Source: Phycisphaerales bacterium (GTDB taxonomy: Bacteria; Planctomycetota; Phycisphaerae; Phycisphaerales; UBA5793). Taken from it: DNA of 64,000 bases. This document shows, piece by piece, positions 4,386 through 18,295 of the stretch (its first letter is position 1; each line of letters opens with the position of its first letter). A model generated the notes under the pieces. It worked only from the letters and a program-made list of their open reading frames with translations. It did not search any database and was not told where the DNA came from. The stretch is from assembly GCA_020852515.1 (NCBI GenBank), contig JADZAS010000021.1, forward strand, positions 62,001-126,000, read 5' to 3'. Made by a program: the position numbers and the translations under genes.

Positions 4386-4419
4386 TTGACAGATTCGACA
4401 TCATCTGCGATGCTCTATA
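4386..4419 (+). promoter_or_regulatory. possible promoter for the prepilin-like gene
   Basis: A perfect TTGACA lies at 4386-4391, in a locally AT-richer stretch, 110 bases before the gene. The best -10 candidates (GATGCT at 4408 with 16-base spacing, or TCTATA at 4414) are poor or badly spaced, so this is only a weak suggestion. Confidence 0.25.
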
Positions 4420-4502
4420 GGGGCTCGTCGGCCGCGATCGCCGGGCGGCACCCAGTTCTCCGGTCCGACTTTCGTCGGATCCTTCGGAAAGGCGGTAGAC
4501 TC

Positions 4503-5321
4503 GTGGCTCAGCCTCATCGCATGCGTGCCCATCGCGGCTTCACCCTGATCGAACTGCTGGTGGTGATCTCGATCATCGCGCTGCTCATCAGCCTGCTGCT
4601 GCCGGCGCTGGGTCAGGCGCGCGAGCATGCGCGTCGGAGCGCCTGCGCTTCGAACCAGCGGCAGATCGGTTACGCGCTGCACATCTACGCGACGGAGTAC
4701 AAGGACTTCGTGCCGCGCGAGGGCAAGTACCATGAGCCGCGCGGCGGAAACGTTTACGCGTACTACTACCCGTGGCCCCGCGCGTTCTACAAGTACGTCA
4801 GACCGTTGACGGACTCGCGGATGAACAACCTCGACAGCACGGTGTGGCTCGACCACGGCTTGTTCGACGACATGAAGCAGTACCAGTGCCCGTCCTATCC
4901 GAATCCGCTGCACGTGGTGCACTACATCAACAACGGCATCATGATGCAATGGGGGGGAAACGGCCTTTATCGCGATGGGCGGCACCCGACAGCGCCGCTG
5001 AGCGAGTTCATTCAGCCCGACCACGCGATGTATCTCTCAGAGTTTACGGACGATCCTGACAACTCTATTTCGCAGCAGATGCAGAACTACCCGTATCTCG
5101 ACCACTGGTACGACGTCTTCCTCGAAGTGCACATCAACGGCCCCGAGGACAACTCCAACGGCTGGGGCGGCAACATCGCGCGCATCAGCAGCAAGCGCCA
5201 CCTCGGCAACGGCTCCAACGCCCTCTACGCCGACAGCCACGTCGAGTTCCGCGAGCGCGAAGTGCTGCGCGATCTCGACAGCTGGGACGACAAGACGTAC
5301 AACAACTCCTGGTGGCGGTGA
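4503..5321 (+). CDS. type II secretion/pilin-like protein with prepilin N-terminal methylation motif
   Basis: A short basic leader ends at a glycine and is followed by [20 protein letters not shown], the class III (type IV prepilin) cleavage and membrane motif with the glutamate at +5. The rest is a periplasmic domain rich in Tyr, Trp and Asn. Near the C-terminus [17 protein letters not shown] resembles the H-X9-DG motif of planctomycete DUF1559-type pseudopilins, with one extra residue and DS in place of DG. I chose the GTG at 4503 because GGAAAGG lies 10 bases upstream; the ATG at 4521 has no ribosome-binding site but would give an equally good leader. It is likely cleaved by a prepilin peptidase and assembled into a pseudopilus or left as a surface protein. 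No pilus machinery is adjacent. Confidence 0.85.
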
Positions 5322-7972: not shown

Positions 7973-9214
7973 TCAGTTCCCCTTTCGCTTCTTCGACTTC
8001 AGCAGGCGGGTCTGAGAGCGCTGAGGCGATTCAGCCGCCGACGGATCGGTCAGCGAACCGACCGGATCGACGACTCGTCGATTTCTGCGGCGGCGGATGC
8101 GTCGGTTGTTGTCGCTGGCGGGAGGATTTTCGTTTACAGCGGGCGCCTTGTTCCCGTTGGACTTGTCGGCGAGTTCAAGGAACAGCGAATAGAACGGCTC
8201 CCGCGGCTCGCCATTCTCGTCCGTGAGCGTGACCCAGCCGAACCGGTCCGCAATGCGCTTGGGCACATGGTATTGGGAGTAGGCCGCGGCGATGACGTTG
8301 TACTCCGCCATGGCGTTGTAGATGTCGATGGTCGCCTGCCGGGCCGCCTGCGGGTTGTGATCGGTGGCTCTGGAGGCGCTCCACTCCCACACGACGATTC
8401 CGCACTTTTCTCCATCCGGGAAAGTGTTCATGGCACGACGCACCGTCTGCAGACGCGATCGAGCAGAAGGACCGCTGTCGGTATGGAGGTGCACATCAAC
8501 CGCGTCGGTGTGCTCGACCGACCAGGCAATTCCGCGAAGCATGCGCTGTCTTCGCTCCGTCTGTTTCGAAGTCAGCGTGGACTCGGACTCATCGAGCACA
8601 TCGGTGGCGATCATCGCCGGCCCGCAGAGCCGAACATGAGGCGCCTCGGCACGAATCCTCGCGGCCGCCTCAGCCGCCCATGAGAACAGTTCGTCATCGT
8701 CCGAGGCTTCAAAGGTCCCGGGTCCGCCCAGGAACTCGTTGTAGAACTGAATCCAGAGCCTTCCGGTGAGTTCCTTGGCCGGCGCCGAGTTCAGGGATTT
8801 GATCAAGCCATCGAGCACGCGACGGGACTCGGCGGGCGTTGGCGGCCTTTCGGTCCTCGCCGTGCCTTCCGGACCTTCCGCGTCCGCCCAGCGGAGCGTC
8901 AGGCACAGTCCCATGTTGTTCTTGGCGTACCGAGCGAAGAATGCGTTAAGGTCCTTGGGCTTTGCGGTTCGGAGGTCAACGATTTCGCGAACTCCTTGGG
9001 CATGGATCTCGGCAGCCTTGTCCGGTGCGCCGCCCATGCCGTGAATCCAGACCTGCGGTCCCGCTTCTGCAATGCCGGTGCCGTCGTCAACCACCGAGCC
9101 TCCCTCGGGGGATTCTGGACGTGCGCCGGCACCTGGCCTGGGTGAACAGGCGGAGTAAACGCTGGTCGCTGTTACGAAAAACCCGAGTACGGTCAGGTGC
9201 TTGAGCGCCTTCAT
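7973..9214 (-). CDS. putative lipoprotein with glycoside-hydrolase-like TIM barrel
   Basis: 413 residues from the ATG at 9214, which has GGAGAGG just upstream. A short signal peptide ends at SVYSAC, a possible but atypical lipobox with C23 as lipidated residue. The body resembles clan GH-A glycosidases: FYNE places a candidate acid/base at E160 and VVWEWS a candidate nucleophile at E277, each ending a predicted beta strand. The C-terminal 60 residues are basic and low complexity (RRIRRRRNRR). No specific family is recognised. As last gene of the exopolysaccharide locus it may trim or release the polymer in the periplasm or outer membrane; that is inference from position and the two glutamates. 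Confidence 0.55.
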   Translation of the reverse strand: MKALKHLTVLGFFVTATSVYSACSPRPGAGARPESPEGGSVVDDGTGIAEAGPQVWIHGMGGAPDKAAEIHAQGVREIVDLRTAKPKDLNAFFARYAKNNMGLCLTLRWADAEGPEGTARTERPPTPAESRRVLDGLIKSLNSAPAKELTGRLWIQFYNEFLGGPGTFEASDDDELFSWAAEAAARIRAEAPHVRLCGPAMIATDVLDESESTLTSKQTERRQRMLRGIAWSVEHTDAVDVHLHTDSGPSARSRLQTVRRAMNTFPDGEKCGIVVWEWSASRATDHNPQAARQATIDIYNAMAEYNVIAAAYSQYHVPKRIADRFGWVTLTDENGEPREPFYSLFLELADKSNGNKAPAVNENPPASDNNRRIRRRRNRRVVDPVGSLTDPSAAESPQRSQTRLLKSKKRKGN

Positions 9215-9369
9215 GTGCCTCTCCAAGGAAGGATGCTTTCGGTGGCGAACTGCCGCTATCCACGCATCAGTTGAGAAAGGTACGATGCAACCGCGCCGAT
9301 CCCAAGCGACGCTGAAGCGATGATAGGCAAACCGCGCCGGTTGTCCGGAATAAAGCGGCTGCGCTGGAG

Positions 9370-10551
9370 CTATAACTCAGGCGTCGGACCTATCGCACGA
9401 AGCCGGTTGTATGCGACCGCAATTCGTGCCGCTGCGTCCCATGGCCTGAACCGCTCATCGAGATCTCGTCGGGCGGCATTTCCAAGACGCATCGCGAGAT
9501 CGGGGTATTCCAGCAGATGACAGATGGCCTGCGCCAGCGCGACGGGATCGTGCGCGGCGAGCATTGCAGTGCGACCGTCTTCCACCTGCAGACCGGGGAG
9601 TCGGGTGGAGACCACGGGCTTTCCTGCCGCCATGGCTTCAAAGGCGAGCATTGGATAGCACTCGCTCGAACTGGAAATCGCGACGATCGAGGCCCTCTTG
9701 AGCAGTGGAGCGGTTGCCGCAACCCACGGCTGGATCCGAACGCAGCCTGCGATCCCGAGAGAGTTCACCAGGTCGTTCAGCTCCGCCTCCTTTGGCCCTG
9801 AACCGGCGATGATCAGTCGGGCGTTTGGATGCTGCTGGGAGACCGCGACCCACGCTCCCACGAGCAGAGGGTAGTTCTTTACGGTTACGAGCCGGCCCAT
9901 CGCGAGCACGAGTGGCGCTGTGCCGAGCCAGGCGGCGATCTCAGGATCGAGCTCGGATCCGTCACGTTCGATTGGCGCGGGGTCGAAGCTGTTGGGGATG
10001 AACATCGCTTCGACGGAGCCGCGGCCGCCGGGCAGCAGATCCTGCAAGTGGGGGCTGACGATGGTGACGAGATCGGTTCTTGGAAAGGCCCACTCCATGA
10101 GTCGCGTCCACAGAGCTATTTTCCAGGGCGGAAGTGTGCCGCTCATCTCGTGCTTCATTTCCGCATGCACGGTCCTCACGACCGATGCACGAAGGCGACG
10201 TCGAGCCGCAAGCGCCATCAGATGCGCCGCTGGATTGTGCGTATGGAGTATTGCGGGTCGAAGTGGCGCGAGCCTGCGCGAGAGTCGCGTGAACCGCCCG
10301 AACTTGCTCATCTGGATGATGACCGGCTCGATTCCGGCAGCCCGGAGCATGGCGCACGCGGTAGATTCCTGCAACGCCGCGAAGCGCAAATCCCAGCCTG
10401 CGGCGAGGAGCAGTGGCGCCCACTGTCGAATCGTCGTGATGATGCCGCCACCCTCCGTGCCAAGCAGCACGTGAACAACGCTTCCCTCGAATTGCGGCTT
10501 CGGCAGCGCCGGCCGGCGCTCGTCCGGTGCTGATTCGTTGGGGCGGCTCAT
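9370..10551 (-). CDS. glycosyltransferase family 4 protein
   Basis: 393 residues from the ATG at 10551, eight bases after the upstream stop. N-terminal domain: HVLLGTEGGGIITTI and AILHTHNPAAHLMALAA (GT-B acceptor side). C-terminal domain: PLVLAMGRLVTVKNYPLL, ARLIIAGSGPKEAELNDLV and the ISSSSECYPMLAFEAMAAG block, where the family 4 EX7E motif is recognisable (E of SSECYP to E of AFEA). It should transfer a sugar from a nucleotide sugar to a polymer or lipid-linked intermediate at the cytoplasmic face of the membrane. It is the only glycosyltransferase in this EPS locus, so the repeat unit needs further enzymes encoded elsewhere. GC content looks somewhat lower than in the flanking genes. Confidence 0.88.
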   Translation of the reverse strand: MSRPNESAPDERRPALPKPQFEGSVVHVLLGTEGGGIITTIRQWAPLLLAAGWDLRFAALQESTACAMLRAAGIEPVIIQMSKFGRFTRLSRRLAPLRPAILHTHNPAAHLMALAARRRLRASVVRTVHAEMKHEMSGTLPPWKIALWTRLMEWAFPRTDLVTIVSPHLQDLLPGGRGSVEAMFIPNSFDPAPIERDGSELDPEIAAWLGTAPLVLAMGRLVTVKNYPLLVGAWVAVSQQHPNARLIIAGSGPKEAELNDLVNSLGIAGCVRIQPWVAATAPLLKRASIVAISSSSECYPMLAFEAMAAGKPVVSTRLPGLQVEDGRTAMLAAHDPVALAQAICHLLEYPDLAMRLGNAARRDLDERFRPWDAAARIAVAYNRLRAIGPTPEL

Positions 10552-10559
10552 GATGCAGT

Positions 10560-11306
10560 TCACCGATGCCAGATCAATTGGACGGGATGCAGATTCAGAT
10601 CGGCCACTTCGGTTGCCAACCTTTCCACCGTGCGGCGATCGGTTCGGCCTCGGCGCATCGATAGGACGATGCGATCGAGCACCCCGCCAAGCATCGCCAC
10701 GCTCCATCCCGGGCCGACGGCCGGCAGCGACCAGACAATCCGCTGGTAGCGCTCGCGCAGCGCGGCGTCGAAATCGCGCAGCAGGCCCGAGTCGGCCAGG
10801 CGCGGCAGCGAGAATCGACCCAGATCGGCCAGCACATCGAGATTCGGCAGATTCGGTGAGATCGGCTGGGGCATCGGCAGGTGCTGGCCGCATTCGATGG
10901 CGGTGAGCAGATCGGCGATCCTGGGCACCGTGCGATTGAGGCGCCGGCCGGTTTCGCAGCAGCGGCCGCCGATTTCAACCAGCAGTGTCGAGTACTCCCA
11001 GCGGGCCCAGAGGCCGGCGAACGCCAGAGCAGTGGCGGAATGGCCGTTGCCGCGCGTCGGCGCGGTGGTGACGCCGACGGCGAGCGTATCGCCAGGATGC
11101 TCCCCTTTGATCTGCTGGGCCATGCGCGCGTAGCGGGCAAAGAGCAGCGAGTCTTCAGGTTCGGCGGCGATGTGCCGCACGAGCGGCCGCAGCCGGCCCA
11201 GCGACTGCGGCGGGGCCGCGGCATCGAGCCGGCGATACAGCCAGCGCGGACGCGCTGCGGCGATGGCGTCGGGCGGGCGGCTGACGATGGCGCGCGTGTC
11301 GTCCAT
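10560..11306 (-). CDS. CpsD/CapB-like (BY-kinase fold) protein 1 with degenerate P-loop
   Basis: 248 residues. The region TLAVGVTTAPTRGNGHSA (residues 74-91) aligns in position with the Walker A of bacterial tyrosine kinases and ParA-like ATPases, but the GEGKST core is GNGHSA: the lysine is replaced by histidine. The next strand, STLLVEIGG, stands where LLIDAD (Walker A') should be and lacks the aspartate. No C-terminal tyrosine cluster is present. It lies 8 bases after the Wzz1 stop, the normal place for the CpsD partner of a CpsC/Wzz protein. A paralogue with a similar ending (LDVIWFE versus VQLIWHR) follows Wzz2. It probably has a structural or regulatory, non-catalytic role. The family call rests on fold pattern and context. 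Confidence 0.6.
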   Translation of the reverse strand: MDDTRAIVSRPPDAIAAARPRWLYRRLDAAAPPQSLGRLRPLVRHIAAEPEDSLLFARYARMAQQIKGEHPGDTLAVGVTTAPTRGNGHSATALAFAGLWARWEYSTLLVEIGGRCCETGRRLNRTVPRIADLLTAIECGQHLPMPQPISPNLPNLDVLADLGRFSLPRLADSGLLRDFDAALRERYQRIVWSLPAVGPGWSVAMLGGVLDRIVLSMRRGRTDRRTVERLATEVADLNLHPVQLIWHR

Positions 11307-11314
11307 TCCGTGCG

Positions 11315-12943
11315 TTACCTTCCCTCGCCGCCGGGCAGCCGCGCCAGAAGACGCTGCGTCGCGCCCGGCAGCTCGCCGACCAGTTGCACCGGGAGCGTCT
11401 CGGCCATCTGCTCGATTTGCCAGGGAGCGACGAGTCTGGCTCGCGCCAGGCTGCGCGCGACGGGTACGGCCATGGCGAGCACGCCGGCAACGAGGGCCGT
11501 AACCAGGAGGTGCAGCGGCGCGTTGGGTTCGTCCGGGGTGGTCGGGTCAGCCACCTTCGCGCGGCCCCAGAGGGTGACCTGAGAGAAGAGCGCCACGCTG
11601 GTCAGGCGCGCTTCGAGGCGCGACAGCTCATCTTCAACCTGGCGCAGCGAGGCTTCGGCGGCGGTTCGCGCGCTGAGCAGCCCTTCCATGTGTTGAGCCA
11701 TCTTCATGGCTTCGACGAGCTGCGACTGAAGCAACGACTCGGTTTCAGCGAGCCCGAGTTCGCGGCCGGCCAGCGTCACGAGTTGCCGGTTGTTCTGCGC
11801 CTGGCGCTCGAGCAGACCGACGTACTCCATGCTCGGCTCCTGCACCTTCTCGCGGATGACGAGGAGTTCCTCGTTGTTCAGGTCGCGCTTCTTGCTCTCG
11901 ATTTCGAGGCGGAGGCGCACCATGTCCTGGTGCTTGGGCGTCTTGACGGCCAGGTCGGCGGCGTACTTCGATTCGAGGGTGCTGATCTCGTTCTTGAGTT
12001 GCTGCACGCGCTGGTTCTGCTCCACGACGACGCGAGTGGTCTGCTCCACCTGCGCCTGCTGCATCTTTGCCGTGATGTCGATGCGGTTGGCTTCCGCTTC
12101 GCGCAGGTCGGTTTCCAGATCTGCCCGGTCGCCCCGGGTCTTGATGAGCCGGGACTGGATTTCACGGGCGCTCTCTGCCGGATCGTGCCGACCGATTTCG
12201 AGCCGGTAGTCGGCGACGGCCGCGCTGGCGTCGCTCCACCGGCTGGCCGCGTCATCGCGCAGCGGCTTGAGCTCCTCGGCGCGACCCAGCGTGCGCGAGC
12301 GCTCTTCGCGCAGCAGGAGATTACGCACGCGATCGAGCAGCAGCGATGGCGCCAGTTCGGCAAAGCGCGGCGAGGTGGCCCGGACTTCGATGCGCACGAC
12401 GCCGCCTGTTTCGTCGCCCCGCGGCGCGCTGACGATGAGCGGCGCCGGCTCGCTCGATTCCTCCGCGCCGCCGATTCCCGCCGCGGCCGCTGCGCGGCGA
12501 GGAAGCGATCGCATCCATCGCCAGGCGCCAGTGCCGGCCTGGCGCCAGGGACCCCCGGCCACCACGCCTGGTTCATCGTCCATCGTCGCCAGTTCCTGCG
12601 TGACTTCGCGCACGATCGGCTCGGAGATGAGCAGGTCGCGCAACTCGCTGGCGTCAATCTCGACTCGCAATTGCGACGGGCTCGGGTCATTTTCGAGGCT
12701 GCCGATGCGGTACTCGGGCGTGAGGACCCAATACGGCTGCGACGCCCACAAGTGGGTGAGACCGGCGATGACGCAGAACGCAGCGACGCCCAGCGTGAGC
12801 AGGGGCTGGGTCCGCATCGAGTTGAACGTGTACGAAACGGCGCGGCGCACGCGACCGGGCCTCGACCGGCTCGGGCGCGGCGCCGGAGGCTCGCCGGGCG
12901 AGCCCAGCAGAAGCAGTCGAGGTTGTTCGTGCGGTGAGGGCAT
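11315..12943 (-). CDS. polysaccharide chain-length determinant (Wzz/CpsC type) 1
   Basis: 542 residues from the ATG at 12943 (an upstream TTG at 13024 is possible). Topology fits a polysaccharide co-polymerase: a Pro/Arg-rich cytoplasmic N-terminus, TM1 at about 46-68 (PLLTLGVAAFCVIAGLTHLW), a large periplasmic part with long coiled coils, and TM2 (LHLLVTALVAGVLAMAVPVA) followed by a short cytoplasmic tail with LPVQLVGELPG, which resembles the LPVLGxIP segment that contacts BY kinases. These proteins set the length of exported EPS or O-antigen. The gene is followed by degenerate CpsD-like protein 1. Confidence 0.8.
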   Translation of the reverse strand: MPSPHEQPRLLLLGSPGEPPAPRPSRSRPGRVRRAVSYTFNSMRTQPLLTLGVAAFCVIAGLTHLWASQPYWVLTPEYRIGSLENDPSPSQLRVEIDASELRDLLISEPIVREVTQELATMDDEPGVVAGGPWRQAGTGAWRWMRSLPRRAAAAAGIGGAEESSEPAPLIVSAPRGDETGGVVRIEVRATSPRFAELAPSLLLDRVRNLLLREERSRTLGRAEELKPLRDDAASRWSDASAAVADYRLEIGRHDPAESAREIQSRLIKTRGDRADLETDLREAEANRIDITAKMQQAQVEQTTRVVVEQNQRVQQLKNEISTLESKYAADLAVKTPKHQDMVRLRLEIESKKRDLNNEELLVIREKVQEPSMEYVGLLERQAQNNRQLVTLAGRELGLAETESLLQSQLVEAMKMAQHMEGLLSARTAAEASLRQVEDELSRLEARLTSVALFSQVTLWGRAKVADPTTPDEPNAPLHLLVTALVAGVLAMAVPVARSLARARLVAPWQIEQMAETLPVQLVGELPGATQRLLARLPGGEGR

Positions 12944-13049
12944 ATGAAGCGTCGTCTCGGGAAGCGGCGGCAGACCACCACGGTTCGCAGCGCCGGGCCT
13001 TCCAGTTTCTGGCGATCGTAGCAAACCTGTGCCGCCCTGAGAAAACGGC

Positions 13050-13874
13050 TCAGGTGGCGGCTGATTCCAGCGGTTGCGACTCGAGCGACCAGGCGCTGCG
13101 AACTTCGCGCCGCGGCTCGCAGAGGCTGTAGCCGAGTTTGTTGAGCCGCTCCTCGTAGAGACGCTCGGCTTTGCGGATGCTTCGGCCGGCGAAGAACTCC
13201 TGACGCCACGCCTCCCACTGCGCCAGGTACGACTCGTTCACGTTGCTGCGGATCTCGCGCGTGGCCGCAGCGGGCTCCAGGCCGAGGAACCGGAAAGTGC
13301 TGTCGAGCGTGCGGCGCGGCTGGGCGACGAAATCTTCGTAGTGGAAGATCGTGTAGCGCTTGAGGTGGGGCAGGTCGCCGAGCATGATCTCGTGGCAGAC
13401 GATCCAGTGCTCGACGAGCCGGTGCAGCGGCGTGCGGCGTTTCCACTTCTTGGTGGCGCCCGCGACGGCGACCGGGTGGCGGAGAATGAACACGAACAGC
13501 GAGTTGGGAAACATCGCCTGAAGGAAGCGGGACTTGATGAGATTGGGCGGCGACTTCTCGACGAGGTGCGTGCGGCTCAGGTCCCAGTGGCGCGACCACT
13601 CCTGCCAGAGCTTGTCGCGATTGGCGTCGCTCACCTCGGGCGAAGACTCGGTGAGATGCATCTGCGGCGCAAAGCCGAACCCGCCCGGCCCGCCGTAGCG
13701 GCTGGCGCGGGGGAAGACGGTCTGCAGGTGCTGGCCTTCGTCCTCGGGCACGCCGGTGTCGTGGAAGCCGGAGGTCGCGGGATGGTCGGCGAGGCACTTG
13801 GCAAGCAGGGAGGTCCCGCTGCGATGAAGTCCCGCGATGAACACAAACGTGTGGTCAGCCCTCTCCATGCTCAT
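13050..13874 (-). CDS. sulfotransferase family protein
   Basis: 274 residues, with the ATG at 13874 preceded by GAGG. The PAPS-binding 5'-phosphosulfate loop is FIAGLHRSGTSLLAK (about 12-26) and the 3'-phosphate-binding segment is FVFILRHPVAVAGATKKW (about 127-144). HLVEKSPPNLIKSRFL between them supplies the typical KSP motif. It should transfer sulfate from PAPS to a hydroxyl, here most plausibly on the exopolysaccharide or one of its intermediates, given its place between the polymerase and Wzz1. The polymer made by this locus is therefore predicted to be sulfated. Tyrosine-protein sulfation is a less likely alternative. Confidence 0.82.
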   Translation of the reverse strand: MSMERADHTFVFIAGLHRSGTSLLAKCLADHPATSGFHDTGVPEDEGQHLQTVFPRASRYGGPGGFGFAPQMHLTESSPEVSDANRDKLWQEWSRHWDLSRTHLVEKSPPNLIKSRFLQAMFPNSLFVFILRHPVAVAGATKKWKRRTPLHRLVEHWIVCHEIMLGDLPHLKRYTIFHYEDFVAQPRRTLDSTFRFLGLEPAAATREIRSNVNESYLAQWEAWRQEFFAGRSIRKAERLYEERLNKLGYSLCEPRREVRSAWSLESQPLESAAT

Positions 13875-13914
13875 TTGTCCTCAACCGTTCCCGTCCCGCA
13901 AGGAAACTGACCGA

Positions 13915-15459
13915 TCACCGCCCAAAACGAAACCGCGAACGATCGATCCGGCGAAGGTGTCGCTCCCGACGTACCTGCGCGGATGGTTCAAGAAGATCCG
14001 TGGGGGGGACGAATCCGCCCTGAGCCTCGCGCAGGTAGACGTAGTACGCCGCGCCGCAGAGGCCGAAGACGATGAAGTAGAGTTCGTTCTCCAGCACGTT
14101 TGAAGTGCCTGCACCGACGAACAGTCCGAACGTGGTGGAAGCAATCGCTGTGGCCTCGAACTTGAGGCGCCGGTCGAACGTGCCCAGGGCGGCGCAGTAC
14201 GCACTTCCGGCTGCGGCGACGTAGAAGCCGATGTAGACGAGCATCCCCTGCAATCCGTTTTCGGCAAGCAGCTGCAGGAAGGCGCTGTGAACGCGCAGGT
14301 AGGACGCCGGCGCCTCGGGATCACGGTAGATGTTGTAGTAAATGCCCCAGGCGTTGGTTCCGATGCCGACGATGGGATGATCGAGGAACATCTGGTACGC
14401 CATCCGCCACATCGCCAGACGCCAGATGACGGTGCGGTTCGCCTCGGTCGGATCGGCAATTCGCTGGGCAGCGATATCCGCTCCGGTGGTGGAGATGATC
14501 GCCAAGGCGGAGACCACCACGACGGCGACAAACAGCAGCTTCGCGAATCGATGCTTCACCGGACACGTGAGGAAGACGATCAGACTGGCGACGCTAAACG
14601 CGAGCGCGCCTCCGCGAGATCCCGTGGCGGCGATGTTGACGCCGATAAAGAGCAACGCCACAACGAGCAGCGCTTTCTGCCACCATCGGCGATAGTAGAG
14701 CAGGAGTCCGAACGCCAGCGCGCCGGGAATGCTCTGAGCGAGGCTGTAGCGGACGGGGTCGCCGGACGGACCGATGACGCGAAGCGTGCCGCCGAAACTG
14801 CCGAGAACGTTCGTCGAACTTTCAACGTTCGACTTGCCAAATCGTTCGAGCAGACCGACGCCGGTGATCATCTCGCTCGTCGTGGCGATGGCCACGAGCG
14901 TGCCGCCGATGACCAGGCACAGCACGCATCGATGGAAGACGTCACGATCGGCGACCGCGAGAATCAGGATTCCCATCAGCGCCACCACGTTCAGGCGGCG
15001 GTTGATGAACTCTGTGGCGAGTTCCGGGTGCGGCATGAATGGGACGCCGGCAAGACAGCAGATCAGAAACAGCACGCCGAGGATGATGAGCGGATCGCCC
15101 AGCTTCTTCGACCACCCTCGCAGTTGATCTCCCAGGATCGCCGCCAGGAGGAAGATGATGGTCAGACCAATGGCGATCTTGGTGCCGCTGACGGTCCCCG
15201 CTTCGCCAAATGTCTGCAGCCGGTCCCACATCACGAGCAGCATGATGATGTAGATGCCGATGCGGAACTCCAGACCGAGCGCGATGATCGATCCGATGGT
15301 GGCGATGATGGCAAAGCAAAGGACCGTCGGGAAGACCGGATCGGCAGACCGGCCGACGAAAACACCCAGCAGGAAGATCAATCCGAAGATCGGAACGAAC
15401 AGCAGTGCAATGAACAGCCACTGCCGTAGGTCTCTTCCAGTTGAAGCTGTTGTGAGCAT
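13915..15459 (-). CDS. O-antigen ligase / Wzy-type polymerase family membrane protein
   Basis: 514 residues with about 11-12 predicted membrane segments. The ATGSRGGALAFSVASLIVFL block and the periplasmic-loop motif HSAFLQLLAENGLQGMLVY are the signature of the O-antigen ligase/polymerase family. These inner-membrane proteins link or polymerise undecaprenyl-linked oligosaccharides. With two Wzz proteins, a sulfotransferase and a glycosyltransferase alongside, a Wzx/Wzy-type EPS route is likely, although no flippase is present in this window. The C-terminal tail is Arg-rich and cytoplasmic. Ligase and polymerase cannot be told apart from sequence. Confidence 0.85.
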   Translation of the reverse strand: MLTTASTGRDLRQWLFIALLFVPIFGLIFLLGVFVGRSADPVFPTVLCFAIIATIGSIIALGLEFRIGIYIIMLLVMWDRLQTFGEAGTVSGTKIAIGLTIIFLLAAILGDQLRGWSKKLGDPLIILGVLFLICCLAGVPFMPHPELATEFINRRLNVVALMGILILAVADRDVFHRCVLCLVIGGTLVAIATTSEMITGVGLLERFGKSNVESSTNVLGSFGGTLRVIGPSGDPVRYSLAQSIPGALAFGLLLYYRRWWQKALLVVALLFIGVNIAATGSRGGALAFSVASLIVFLTCPVKHRFAKLLFVAVVVVSALAIISTTGADIAAQRIADPTEANRTVIWRLAMWRMAYQMFLDHPIVGIGTNAWGIYYNIYRDPEAPASYLRVHSAFLQLLAENGLQGMLVYIGFYVAAAGSAYCAALGTFDRRLKFEATAIASTTFGLFVGAGTSNVLENELYFIVFGLCGAAYYVYLREAQGGFVPPTDLLEPSAQVRRERHLRRIDRSRFRFGR

Positions 15460-15533
15460 CGCCGTGAAGTCGCCGCGGATGGAGAACTAGAGCGGTTCCG
15501 CCAGGCTGCCCAGCGCAACCGGCGCGAATGCGG

Positions 15534-16244
15534 TTACTCGAACCAGATCACATCGAGCGGCCGCAGCCCCGCCCAGATCGCCTGTTCAGCGATTTCGCGG
15601 ACCGGTCCGCCGCGGGTAACGCCGCGTTCCAGAGCCAGAACGAGTCGATCGCAGCATGTGCCCAGAGACAGCAGCGGAAAGCCCGTGGCCAGCTTCGGCA
15701 CCGCAAGCACGACGCGGTCGTGGTTCATCTTGAGAACCTCGATGAGCCCCGCCAGGCGTCCCGTCGAGATCAAACCCAGCACGTCGGCCTTGCCGGCTGC
15801 GATGACGCCCGTTTGCGGCACACTCGCGTGCAGGCGCGAGATCGTCGTCATGGGTTTGCGGGCGACCGCCTCCTCGCATGCCGAACCAAGATCGGGCGCC
15901 GACGCGGTGACGGCGCCGGAAAGCGCCTGCGTGCCGCTTCCCAGATCGATGAGCACGGTTGATCGTCCCCACCTGCCCCAGAGCGTGGCCAGGGCCACGG
16001 CGGTCTGGCCAATGCGCTCGTCAGACTCTACGGCACTGACCGCCACGGCAACGGGCCGCCCCTGCGCGGCGGAGTCGCACGATGTCGCCAGTTCGCCGAT
16101 CGCCATGGCGATGCGAGCGGTGCTCGGCGCGGCGACAAGGCGACCGAGGAACGAGCCCACAGGATGCGAGGCGTTCACTTGGGCCGCAGATCCAGTGGCG
16201 CTGGTTCGCGACTGTACCGGAATGGCTTGTGTTTCAGTTGTCAT
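15534..16244 (-). CDS. CpsD/CapB-like (BY-kinase fold) protein 2 with degenerate P-loop
   Basis: 236 residues. VAVAVSAVESDERIGQTA (about 65-82) occupies the Walker A position, but the GxGK(S/T) core is absent (DERIGQT), so nucleotide binding in the usual way is doubtful. STVLIDLGSG (about 95-104) keeps the first aspartate of Walker A' only. It parallels the protein at 10560-11306: same size, same WxRWxxSTxL stretch, and a similar C-terminus (LRPLDVIWFE). It follows Wzz2 by 78 bases. There is no tyrosine-rich tail. It is probably a pseudo-kinase partner of Wzz2; assignment is by pattern and context. Confidence 0.6.
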   Translation of the reverse strand: MTTETQAIPVQSRTSATGSAAQVNASHPVGSFLGRLVAAPSTARIAMAIGELATSCDSAAQGRPVAVAVSAVESDERIGQTAVALATLWGRWGRSTVLIDLGSGTQALSGAVTASAPDLGSACEEAVARKPMTTISRLHASVPQTGVIAAGKADVLGLISTGRLAGLIEVLKMNHDRVVLAVPKLATGFPLLSLGTCCDRLVLALERGVTRGGPVREIAEQAIWAGLRPLDVIWFE

Positions 16245-16322
16245 GCTGTTCTCGCGTCAACTCTTTCTGCGGGACTCGCTGATGTTGGAGCAGGTGACTG
16301 AGCCGGTCAGTCGTTGCGTCCA

Positions 16323-17996
16323 TCAAACGCTTGTGAACATGCGATTCGATCTGGTGCTCGGCACAGAAGCCACGACGCGCACGCCTGGGATCGCCGACAC
16401 CTGCTGCGAACTGAGCAGCGTCTGGTTGAGGTAGTCATAGGCAATCGGCAGAACCAGGGCGGCAAAGGCGGCGATGAGCAGCGCGAGCAGCGCCGCCAGC
16501 AGCATACTCGGGTAGTCGTTCTTGTTCTCGTTGAGCACCTGGGTATCCGTCCGCGAGACGACGCCGTTAAACAGCCGGGGTCCAGCGAGCAGGTTGTGGA
16601 GCTGGCGCGCCTGAGTCGTCAGTTGCTTCAACTGCTCCTCGTCCGCGATGGCTTCGCGCTGCATTCGTTTCAGTTCGATGTCGGCCTTGACGGCGCTGTG
16701 CTGCATTTCGGTCAGAGCGGCAATGGCCTGATCCAGCGCACCCACGCGAGCGCGGAGGGCGTTCAACTGGACCGTCGAATCAATCCAGCTGTTGAACAGC
16801 GAGAGGTATTTGGGATCGACCTGCTCCGTGACGTTTGATCGGTCGGTTCCGATCTTCGACTCATCGCTCTTGGCGTCCGCCAGGCTCTGCTCCATCGCCT
16901 TGAGTTTCACTTCAAGCGACTGCACTGCAGGCGAATTCGGCCCTTGAGAGGCCTTCTTCTGGGCAATCTCCGCCTTGGTGTCGGCGATGTCGATTTCGAT
17001 TCGCGACGACAGCAGATTGTCGGGCTGCGAGGCGACGCCCTCCTGCATGAGCTTTCGGATTTCGGGAACTTCCGCGAGTTGCTTTTCAAGCGTCGCGATT
17101 TTGGCCGAAAGCGTGTCGTCCTGCAACTGAAACGTCGTCTTTTCGTTTCGCAGACTCTGTGCCGTCTCCTGTGCACTCTGCGCGTAGGTCTCCGGGTCGA
17201 AAAACTCGTACTTTGTTCGGGCGTCCTGAATCCTCGCGTCGTTTTCGGCCACGCGCAGTTGCGCGTCCTGGATCAGTCCGGGCACCACCCGGCCATCCTC
17301 GCCGACCGTTCCTTCGAGAACGCCCAGCTGACGCTCCACGCCCGCCCGCAGCGCGGCGTCGGTACGCTCTTGAAGCAGATCCATGATGGTGTCGCCGACC
17401 TGCCGAGTGATTTTGGGCGAGTCGCCGTAGACGTAAATCGGAATAATGGTCGAACCTTCGGTTGGCGTGATGCTCAGCCACGCCGACGTGAGTTCATCCA
17501 TGGCTTTGGCGACGTAATCGACCTTGAAGTCGCCGCGAAGGAACTGCAGGGTGGCCACTTTCGCGATCGTCTTCTTGATGCGGGTGCGCATGTTCGGCGG
17601 CGTTTCCGCGACCTGCTTGAGGTGGTCGTCCAATCCCGAGCGTTCCACCACTTCGCGCAGAAAGCTCAGCGAGCGCGTCTGCTCGACCAGATTCTTCACG
17701 AGCTGGTTGGCGGTCAGCGGAGCCGCGTCCGTCATGGCGCCGCTTTCGAGTGACATGGTCGGCATGGGCGTGGAGTGGATCTCCATCGTCGCCTGGCCTT
17801 CCCACGTGGGGGTTACCAGCCACGCGGCGAAGAGCACGATGCCCATCGACACCACGAACAGGAGCACCACAGCCAGCCAGTGCTGCGTCCAGGAACGCAC
17901 GAAGTTGTCAACCATCATCGAACGCACTTCGGGCAGCGGCCAGCCCTGCGAATCGAATCCCGTTGGCGCCGTCTCTTGATGTTGAGGTGAACTCAT
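16323..17996 (-). CDS. polysaccharide chain-length determinant (Wzz/GNVR type) 2
   Basis: 557 residues from the ATG at 17996. TM1 is at about 40-62 (WLAVVLLFVVSMGIVLFAAWL) after a Wzz-type N-terminus, followed by PTWEGQATMEIHSTPMP. A long periplasmic region has several coiled-coil stretches (for example IEIDIADTKAEIAQKKASQG), and TM2 (MLLAALLALLIAAFAALVL) is followed by a short tail containing VSAIPGVRVVASVPSTRSN, which resembles the BY-kinase contact segment. Upstream there is a 300-base gap, so this is probably the first gene of the EPS transcription unit. Confidence 0.8.
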   Translation of the reverse strand: MSSPQHQETAPTGFDSQGWPLPEVRSMMVDNFVRSWTQHWLAVVLLFVVSMGIVLFAAWLVTPTWEGQATMEIHSTPMPTMSLESGAMTDAAPLTANQLVKNLVEQTRSLSFLREVVERSGLDDHLKQVAETPPNMRTRIKKTIAKVATLQFLRGDFKVDYVAKAMDELTSAWLSITPTEGSTIIPIYVYGDSPKITRQVGDTIMDLLQERTDAALRAGVERQLGVLEGTVGEDGRVVPGLIQDAQLRVAENDARIQDARTKYEFFDPETYAQSAQETAQSLRNEKTTFQLQDDTLSAKIATLEKQLAEVPEIRKLMQEGVASQPDNLLSSRIEIDIADTKAEIAQKKASQGPNSPAVQSLEVKLKAMEQSLADAKSDESKIGTDRSNVTEQVDPKYLSLFNSWIDSTVQLNALRARVGALDQAIAALTEMQHSAVKADIELKRMQREAIADEEQLKQLTTQARQLHNLLAGPRLFNGVVSRTDTQVLNENKNDYPSMLLAALLALLIAAFAALVLPIAYDYLNQTLLSSQQVSAIPGVRVVASVPSTRSNRMFTSV

Positions 17997-18295
17997 GGCG
18001 GTGTCTCGACCCCGGATCTCGTGTGAAAACAGGCTCGCTCTCCGGGCGTACGCAGGCCCGAAAGACCATCTGTCGAATCTCCCGGCGGGGCCGACATGGG
18101 CACGAGCCGCCGACCCGACCGAATCGGGCCGGACGCGCACGCGGCCGGGCGATTCAGCGGGCTGTGATTGGCTTATAGGCTATCAACGATTGGCATCGGC
18201 GTAAAGCGGGGGTCGGCATAAACGTCGATGCCCGCAAAGGCTGCGCGAAGCGCCTGGAACGCGCTCCAATCGCTGGCGGGCCGCAAACGCGGGGG
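17997..18295. other. intergenic region upstream of the EPS locus
   Basis: 300 bases between the first EPS gene and the end of the peptidase gene, both on the minus strand. It should hold the EPS promoter. The 18165-18215 part is locally richer in A/T, but I see no convincing -35/-10 pair, no operator palindrome and no terminator. Confidence 0.4.

Follow-up and report, generated by a model that had tools for sequence, protein, structure and literature searches.

Two genes on the minus strand of the window (the whole stretch of 64,000 nucleotides that was analysed, from a Phycisphaerales bacterium) encode stand-alone BY pseudokinases, here termed A (10560..11306, 248 aa) and B (15534..16244, 236 aa), which probably act as the structural base for rings of kinase-less PCP-2 proteins in a Wzy-dependent pathway. 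Both have lost the catalytic motifs of BY-kinases whilst being predicted to keep the fold, both are conserved in this state, and each adjoins a PCP that is devoid of a kinase domain. The pairing of a PCP-2 protein with a separately encoded BY pseudokinase has already been published, for EcpK/EpsV of Myxococcus and for HfsB/HfsA of Caulobacter (PMC12004946). The new feature of this locus is the presence of two complete PCP plus pseudokinase pairs, one on either side of a single Wzy, that behave as separate evolutionary modules; among the open-access papers listed, there was no report of two PCP-2/pseudokinase pairs per locus, or of such pairs in planctomycetes.

Homology and predicted fold of A and B

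The sequence-only reading had described A and B as paralogues, and their homology is borne out by BLASTP (25% over 157 aa, E 1e-15). A Pfam scan returned no match in either protein, the NCBIfam scan gave B only a non-significant BY-kinase match (E 0.11), and when A and B were compared with PDB sequences using phmmer the best match was VpsO, at E values of 1.8 and 0.35. As these searches gave too little on their own, the comparison was extended to genome-scale profiles and to folds. The BY-kinase model TIGR01007 matches two copies of A from other genomes of the family (G001 at E 1.6e-8 and G002 at 3.2e-4), and a profile termed A3 reaches intact BY-kinases outside the family with E values down to 8e-13. 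A candidate third paralogue in the same genome (L003, at G000:C37:100799, E 0.08) was judged to be a chance match, its frame being without a BY-kinase motif.

The AF2 models of A and B have pLDDT values of 83.9 and 79.5 and pTM values of 0.86 and 0.81, and their leading PDB matches are exclusively BY-kinases. When Foldseek's own list, and that list only, was re-scored with VIA-align, A ranked closest to CapA1B1 (4jlv; Z 18.7, rmsd 3.0, 198 residues aligned; first non-BY-kinase at Z 12.6) and B to Wzc (3la6; Z 19.9, rmsd 2.9, 201 residues aligned; first non-BY-kinase at Z 13.1). The models thus fall beside BY-kinases at Z 18.7-19.9 and not outside the P-loop fold, a placement that would have spoken against the earlier proposal. 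Most of the pseudokinase alignments start near residue 494 of Wzc, and those of some chains at 479, which indicates that A and B lack most of the initial part of the Wzc kinase domain.

Loss of the catalytic motifs and its conservation

Motif positions were read by alignment to BY-kinases with an intact P-loop in 12 proteins, two from each of the six genomes of the family. The sequence-only reading had placed GNGHSA or DERIGQT at the site of Walker A and LLVEIGG or VLIDLGS at that of Walker A', and had noted that neither protein carries a tyrosine tail; each of these observations was upheld. Protein A has TRGNGHSATA at the Walker A site and LLVEIGG at A', and B has SDERIGQTA and VLIDLGS. The Walker A lysine is absent from 12/12 proteins, its position being taken by H, Q or I in the copies of A and by I, A or M in those of B; the second Walker A' aspartate is likewise absent throughout (12/12, replaced by G or A), as is the Walker B aspartate (12/12, with S or A in the A copies and A or V in the B copies). 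The last 30 residues hold 0 or 1 tyrosine, so that there is no tyrosine cluster at the C-terminus, and the models of A and B terminate at the last strand with no tail beyond it. A WxRWxxST strand had also been proposed as common to the two proteins: a W-x-R-W...T segment is indeed shared and almost invariant, although the models show it as a helix end leading into a strand and not as a single strand.

Both genes, together with the same motif losses, are kept in all six genomes, and the occurrence of the same losses in both genes in 6/6 genomes is more than would be expected by chance. Within the genus (five of the six genomes, G001 being too distant for this measure), dN/dS lies between 0.05 and 0.34 in 20/20 pairs, which denotes purifying selection. 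No relative within the family has an intact Walker motif. Loss in 12/12 copies and these dN/dS values support the earlier suggestion that A and B belong to a settled non-catalytic BY-kinase-like family beside Wzz, and not to genes in random decay. In the tree, the branch that carries A and B together is very long, and support for A as a group of its own is weak (77/42).

Two PCP plus pseudokinase pairs around one polymerase

All genes of the locus lie on the minus strand; on the plus strand, the spans of A and B are interrupted by stops. WzzB (16326..17999; open reading frame open from 18140, with a conserved ATG at 17999) is a PCP-2-like chain-length/co-polymerase protein with two TM segments, a 41-aa cytoplasmic tail and no kinase domain. 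It is followed by B, by a Wzy/O-antigen-ligase-like membrane polymerase (13915..15459; PF04932 Wzy_C, E 2.3e-23), by a sulfotransferase (13050..13874; PF13469, E 1.4e-20) that travels together with WzzA and A, and by WzzA itself (11315..13024), a second PCP-2-like protein with two TM segments and no kinase domain, whose start is uncertain (TTG at 13024, in-frame ATG at 12943). Protein A comes next, and the ATG of a GT4-family glycosyltransferase (9370..10551; PF13692, E 2.6e-27) lies 8 nt past its stop. Each pseudokinase is therefore encoded directly downstream of its own two-TM, Wzz-like PCP-2, as had been proposed, with gaps of 8 nt (WzzA-A) and 78 nt (WzzB-B) calculated from the coordinates. 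This order is kept in 6/6 genomes, the sulfotransferase being absent from its place in the locus only in G001. A low-molecular-weight phosphatase was without a match on the contig of the cluster in 6/6 genomes. Pair B is seen to go with the polymerase and glycosyltransferase, and pair A with the sulfotransferase.

WzzA and WzzB have two TM regions and a cytoplasmic tail of 41-49 aa in 6/6 genomes. Neither has a Wzz Pfam match, and their NCBIfam matches are below the cut-off (TIGR03007 for WzzB, E 0.0012; TIGR03017 for WzzA, E 0.0014). Their naming as PCPs rests on this architecture and on hhalign, which relates WzzA to WzzB (99.5%, E 1.8e-21) and WzzB to fused Wzc (97.7% probability, E 8.5e-12), values that coiled coils can inflate. 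The tails show a pattern like that of the Wzc linker (a helix, then hxxhP..hhxxhP), a resemblance to Wzc alpha1/beta1 at the level of pattern only. Distances across five genomes (G001 again left out as too distant) correlate for the cognate combinations, at 0.97 for A with WzzA (reached by 2/120 relabelings) and, more weakly, at 0.65 for B with WzzB (8/120); the crossed combinations give -0.07 for A with WzzB (61/120) and 0.06 for B with WzzA (40/120). These values support the pairing of A with WzzA and of B with WzzB, and from gene order, the Wzz tail and co-evolution we infer that each pseudokinase is a physical partner of its Wzz.

That the two pairs evolve as separate modules is evident when this genome (G000) is compared with G005. 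The WzzB-B-Wzy segment has been replaced (68% DNA identity), whilst sulfotransferase-WzzA-A is held at 91-92% identity, and none of the three recombination junctions separates a Wzz from its pseudokinase (0/3). The presence of two pairs in one locus may reflect two steps or two chain-length settings.

Proposed role, alternatives and relatives

By analogy with EcpK/EpsV and HfsB/HfsA, A and B would be cytoplasmic proteins with the Wzc/CapB kinase-domain fold that have lost the usual ATP binding and tyrosine-tail phosphorylation. Each would bind the short C-terminal tail of the PCP-2 encoded upstream (A that of WzzA, B that of WzzB) and substitute for the missing kinase domain as the base of the PCP ring, whose assembly and disassembly could then proceed independently of phosphorylation. 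Compared by description, EcpK resembles A and B in having the BY-kinase fold as a separate protein that lacks Walker A, A' and B and a tyrosine tail, EpsV resembles WzzA and WzzB in being a kinase-less PCP-2 whose C-terminal tail is short (25 residues), and both the Myxococcus xanthus system and this locus belong to a Wzx/Wzy-type pathway; however, EcpK/EpsV forms one pair per pathway, whereas there are two here, and EcpK has a Lys/Arg-rich helix at its end, unlike A and B, which terminate at the last strand (PMC12004946). HfsB/HfsA of the Caulobacter holdfast, also compared by description, is again a stand-alone pseudokinase with a kinase-less PCP-2, both of which are required for holdfast polysaccharide, but it is a single pair from a different phylum (PMC12004946). 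CapB/CapA of Staphylococcus (4jlv, 4jmp, 3bfv), the top structural match of A, also places a separate kinase-domain protein beside a membrane partner, although CapB retains the Walker motifs and tyrosine tail (PMC12004946). Wzc of E. coli, the top structural match of B, shares the kinase-domain fold but is fused to its PCP part, is catalytic and has a tyrosine tail.

Several other explanations were weighed against this structural role. Some nucleotide binding, and perhaps hydrolysis, through an unusual loop could make A and B switches that work without tyrosine phosphorylation; copies of A within the genus retain a Gly-rich stretch (RGN[GR][HQ]S), B retains the first A' aspartate in 5/6 genomes and the fold is intact, yet with the second A' aspartate gone along with the lysine and the Walker B aspartate, and with a loop that differs between A and B, this is unlikely. 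It is improbable that A and B regulate, via mixed rings or competition for PCPs, a catalytic BY-kinase encoded elsewhere. An intact-looking, lysine-bearing Wzc-like protein (GDGKTS, LLIDADL; G000:C13:435667) does occur in this genome and in no fewer than three further genomes of the family (G002, G003 and G005), but it is encoded on a different contig as a fusion with its own PCP part and lacks a tyrosine cluster, whilst A and B adjoin kinase-less PCPs of their own; for EcpK, the authors likewise argue against dependence on catalytic BY-kinases (PMC12004946).

A MinD/ParA-type positioning role, not derived from kinases, would account for membership of the same P-loop superfamily and for alignments at Z 12-13, but in the re-scored Foldseek list these chains rank some 4 Z units below every listed BY-kinase. 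The BY-kinase match also spans an N-terminal helix region absent from MinD, and both the TIGR01007 matches of two A copies and the operon with PCP and Wzy argue against this identity, which was rejected on the Z gap as very improbable. The notion that A and B are decaying remnants of former kinases, to which the lost motifs and the many intact-motif kinases in the order would lend themselves, was rejected on dN/dS and is extremely improbable given the open frames and the retention of both genes and their order in 6/6 genomes.

Lysine loss recurs in this class, although well-supported tree branches force only one change: a larger quick tree, which omits the duplicates L131-L134 and L137 (of L111, L107, L105, L113 and L122) and the ParA protein L117, needs six lysine changes in all. 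A fused Wzc-like protein in this same genome is also without the lysine, as are 29/30 of the best loci of a further stand-alone family adjoining PCP-2 genes, a count obtained with a query biased toward lysine-less proteins. A more tentative reading, doubtful as a whole, is that one locus holds two non-interchangeable PCP plus pseudokinase machines and that phosphorylation-free control of PCP-2 is the rule in this planctomycete class. Pair B would be specific to its polymerase and glycosyltransferase and would be exchanged along with them from strain to strain; pair A would stay with the sulfotransferase and the lineage. In several lineages, loss of the lysine would have come first and loss of the entire active site, the state of A and B, last.

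EcpK and HfsB have raised the question of how PCP-2 rings form and come apart when there is no tyrosine phosphorylation. The G000/G005 natural recombinant, in which only one of the two pairs has been exchanged, offers ready-made swaps for pairing determinants in the PCP tail and pseudokinase, and relatives whose losses range from the lysine alone to everything form a series for asking what role the active site retained. In the order-wide search, L055 and L057 were read only downstream of the P-loop and left unclassified, and L054 and L058 proved to be ParA-like (GGCGKT).

Catalytic residues and predicted fold of A and B

The stand-alone proteins A (10560-11306, 248 aa) and B (15534-16244, 236 aa), which resemble bacterial tyrosine kinases (BY-kinases), are both encoded on the minus strand. 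The altered motifs quoted for them in the sequence-only reading (GNGHSA and DERIGQT at Walker A, LLVEIGG and VLIDLGS at A') are present letter for letter in the translated minus-strand sequences, and the paralogy proposed for the two is borne out by BLASTP (25% over 157 aa, E 1e-15). When the 12 A and B proteins were aligned with kinases of the same genome and of the wider order and class, loss of the Walker A lysine proved to be conserved in both copies, the residue being absent from 12/12 proteins (H, Q or I in A; I, A or M in B). The second A' aspartate is replaced by G or A in all 12, as is the Walker B aspartate (by S or A in A, and by A or V in B), and the last 30 residues contain 0 or 1 tyrosines. 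Outside the family, the order search gave 24 loci, of which 20 have an intact BY-kinase P-loop, two are ParA-like and two were unreadable. Of the lysine-less kinase-like proteins compared, A and B show the most extensive loss.

AlphaFold2 models built from 12-row alignments (pLDDT 79.5 and pTM 0.81 for A; 83.9 and 0.86 for B) were compared with the PDB using Foldseek: BY-kinases make up the best 24 matches to A (top E 7.8e-8, to CapA2B2) and all 50 matches listed for B (best E 1.3e-8). With VIA-align, A matches CapA1B1 (Z 18.7, rmsd 3.0, 198 aligned) above MinD (Z 12.6), and B matches Wzc 3la6 (Z 19.9, rmsd 2.9, 201 aligned) above its best non-kinase match, ParA/MinD (Z 13.1). Most of the structural alignments span Wzc residues ~494 (some 479) to 697; A and B therefore largely lack the beginning of the kinase domain, and they end where the last aligned strand ends. 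TIGR01007 matches the A copies of two other genomes of the family, G001 (E 1.6e-8) and G002 (E 3.2e-4), and thereby ties the A/B group to BY-kinases by sequence. Nei-Gojobori counts over 10 pairs per gene from five same-genus genomes put dN/dS at 0.054-0.335 in A and 0.088-0.200 in B, values low enough to indicate working genes. Taken with the fold and the motif loss in 12/12 proteins, they support the earlier proposal of a settled non-catalytic BY-kinase-like family beside Wzz.

Lysine loss in other kinase-like proteins

Across the class, the lysine is absent from 29 of the best 30 loci of a further family, made up of stand-alone BY-kinase-like proteins (L131-L160), a count that is biased because four of the five query sequences themselves had no lysine; in two of the loci the match contains an in-frame stop. 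The genes, from 30 genomes, mostly follow the gene for a PCP-2 whose tail is similar, several precede a Wzy-like protein, and the C-terminus mostly carries IPxFLYRR-like residues in place of a tyrosine tail. In a comparison of 87 proteins, fewer than four tyrosines were found in the last 30 residues of 51/51 lysine-less proteins, and at least four in 7/36 lysine-bearing ones. In another family of the order, a more distant WzzB relative (G174:C175, L130/L161; E 2.9e-29) is preceded, in reading order, by a kinase-like gene without the lysine, a reversed gene order.

Fused Wzc-like proteins of the family also vary at this site. That at G000:C23:72240-72785 (L068), in the genome of the window, reads GAGCTS and keeps the Walker B aspartate; its type occurs in 6/6 genomes (L066-L071) with GAGCTS, GAGCTA, GSGATT or GAGSSS, the lysine position thus being A, C or S, with DGN or DAN at A' and the Walker B aspartate retained. 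A second fused protein, at G000:C13:435667 (L073), keeps GDGKTS; it and L072, L074 and L075 retain all Walker residues but have no C-terminal tyrosine cluster.

Proposed Wzz partners and the likeness to EcpK

In all six genomes, WzzA and WzzB, the PCP-2-like proteins encoded just upstream of A and B, each combine two TM-like regions with a short tail (41-49 residues). The tails conserve an hxxhP..hhxxhP stretch (SAIPGVRVVASVP; ETLPVQLVGELP) similar to the linker of fused Wzc proteins from the same genome (ETLLPVLGTLP). Library scans gave no Pfam Wzz match and only weak NCBIfam matches; by hhalign, in which coiled coils may inflate the scores, WzzA matches WzzB (99.5%, E 1.8e-21) and each matches fused Wzc (97.5-97.7%, E 3e-11 to 9e-12).

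PMC12004946 describes EcpK as a BY pseudokinase that binds the PCP-2 EpsV and compares it with HfsB/HfsA of Caulobacter; its authors propose a third subfamily of PCP-2 proteins, independent of phosphorylation and reportedly widespread, and in their model the PCP tail replaces alpha1/beta1 of the Wzc kinase domain. A and B share the sequence and fold features of this EcpK-type subfamily, and a stand-alone BY pseudokinase with a PCP-2 is a kind already known. What seems new here is the paired PCP and pseudokinase modules: in PMC12004946 and the listings of open-access papers searched, no report was found of a duplicated pair on either side of a single Wzy, of exchange of such modules or of their spread in planctomycetes. 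By analogy with EcpK/HfsB, A and B would most likely cap the PCP rings from below as structural elements that the PCP tail holds in place, and the rings themselves would most likely cycle through binding and release, not phosphorylation. No low-molecular-weight tyrosine phosphatase match was found on the cluster's contig in 6/6 genomes, the contigs being short in several assemblies, which is in line with phosphorylation-independent cycling. Genes for such phosphatases are often unlinked.

Gene order and exchange at the locus

The locus is transcribed in the order WzzB, B, Wzy (PF04932, E 2.3e-23), sulfotransferase (PF13469, E 1.4e-20), WzzA, A and a GT4 glycosyltransferase whose ATG lies 8 nt past the stop of A. 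All six genomes of the family conserve this order; only G001 lacks the sulfotransferase at that site. Between the genome of the window (39 contigs, 4.72 Mb) and G005, DNA identity is 92.0% for the sulfotransferase, 91.5% for WzzA, 90.8% for A and 88.1% for the neighbouring peptidase gene; it is 67.9% for WzzB, 68.2% for B, 68.3% for Wzy and 60.7% for GT4. The junctions fall at ~17760 (WzzB 5' end), 13820-13879 (Wzy/sulfotransferase border) and 10560 (A 3' end), and none splits a Wzz-pseudokinase pair. Over five genomes, distances are correlated between the two members of a pair (A-WzzA 0.97, B-WzzB 0.65; reached by 2 and 8 of 120 relabelings) and not between members of different pairs (A-WzzB -0.07, B-WzzA 0.06; reached by 61 and 40 of 120), which, for as few as five genomes, supports cognate pairing without proving it. 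Correlations of 0.91 for GT4-Wzy and 0.85 for A-M28 likewise suggest an association of pair B with Wzy and GT4, and one of pair A with both the sulfotransferase and the species background.

Positions 9370-18140 of the window read as a mosaic, in which WzzB-B-Wzy and GT4 are swapped between close relatives and sulfotransferase-WzzA-A is unswapped; in this the locus resembles a serotype locus whose core stays constant. Close relatives that could be named are Phycisphaerales/Planctomycetota metagenome assemblies (UBA5793, KLAP200, PLA5, PNC21 and, under another title, PLA1). Record WYBR01000098.1 (L060) is titled Vicinamibacteraceae bacterium isolate PLA1 and matches a contig of G003, which is listed as the same genus as the genome of the window, so the title is probably a naming error. 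In G001, the genes beside WzzB encode an export protein of the outer membrane (PF02563, E 5.7e-18), another GT4 and a polysaccharide deacetylase; the other five genomes have two or three PF02563 matches each, on contigs other than that of the locus. Adjoining the cluster at 7973-9226 (minus strand) is the gene for a 417-aa protein with no significant Pfam or NCBIfam match, 38-63% identical among same-genus relatives and absent or relocated in some. At 4386-5321 lies a 311-aa ORF, the start of whose product we take to be prepilin-type.
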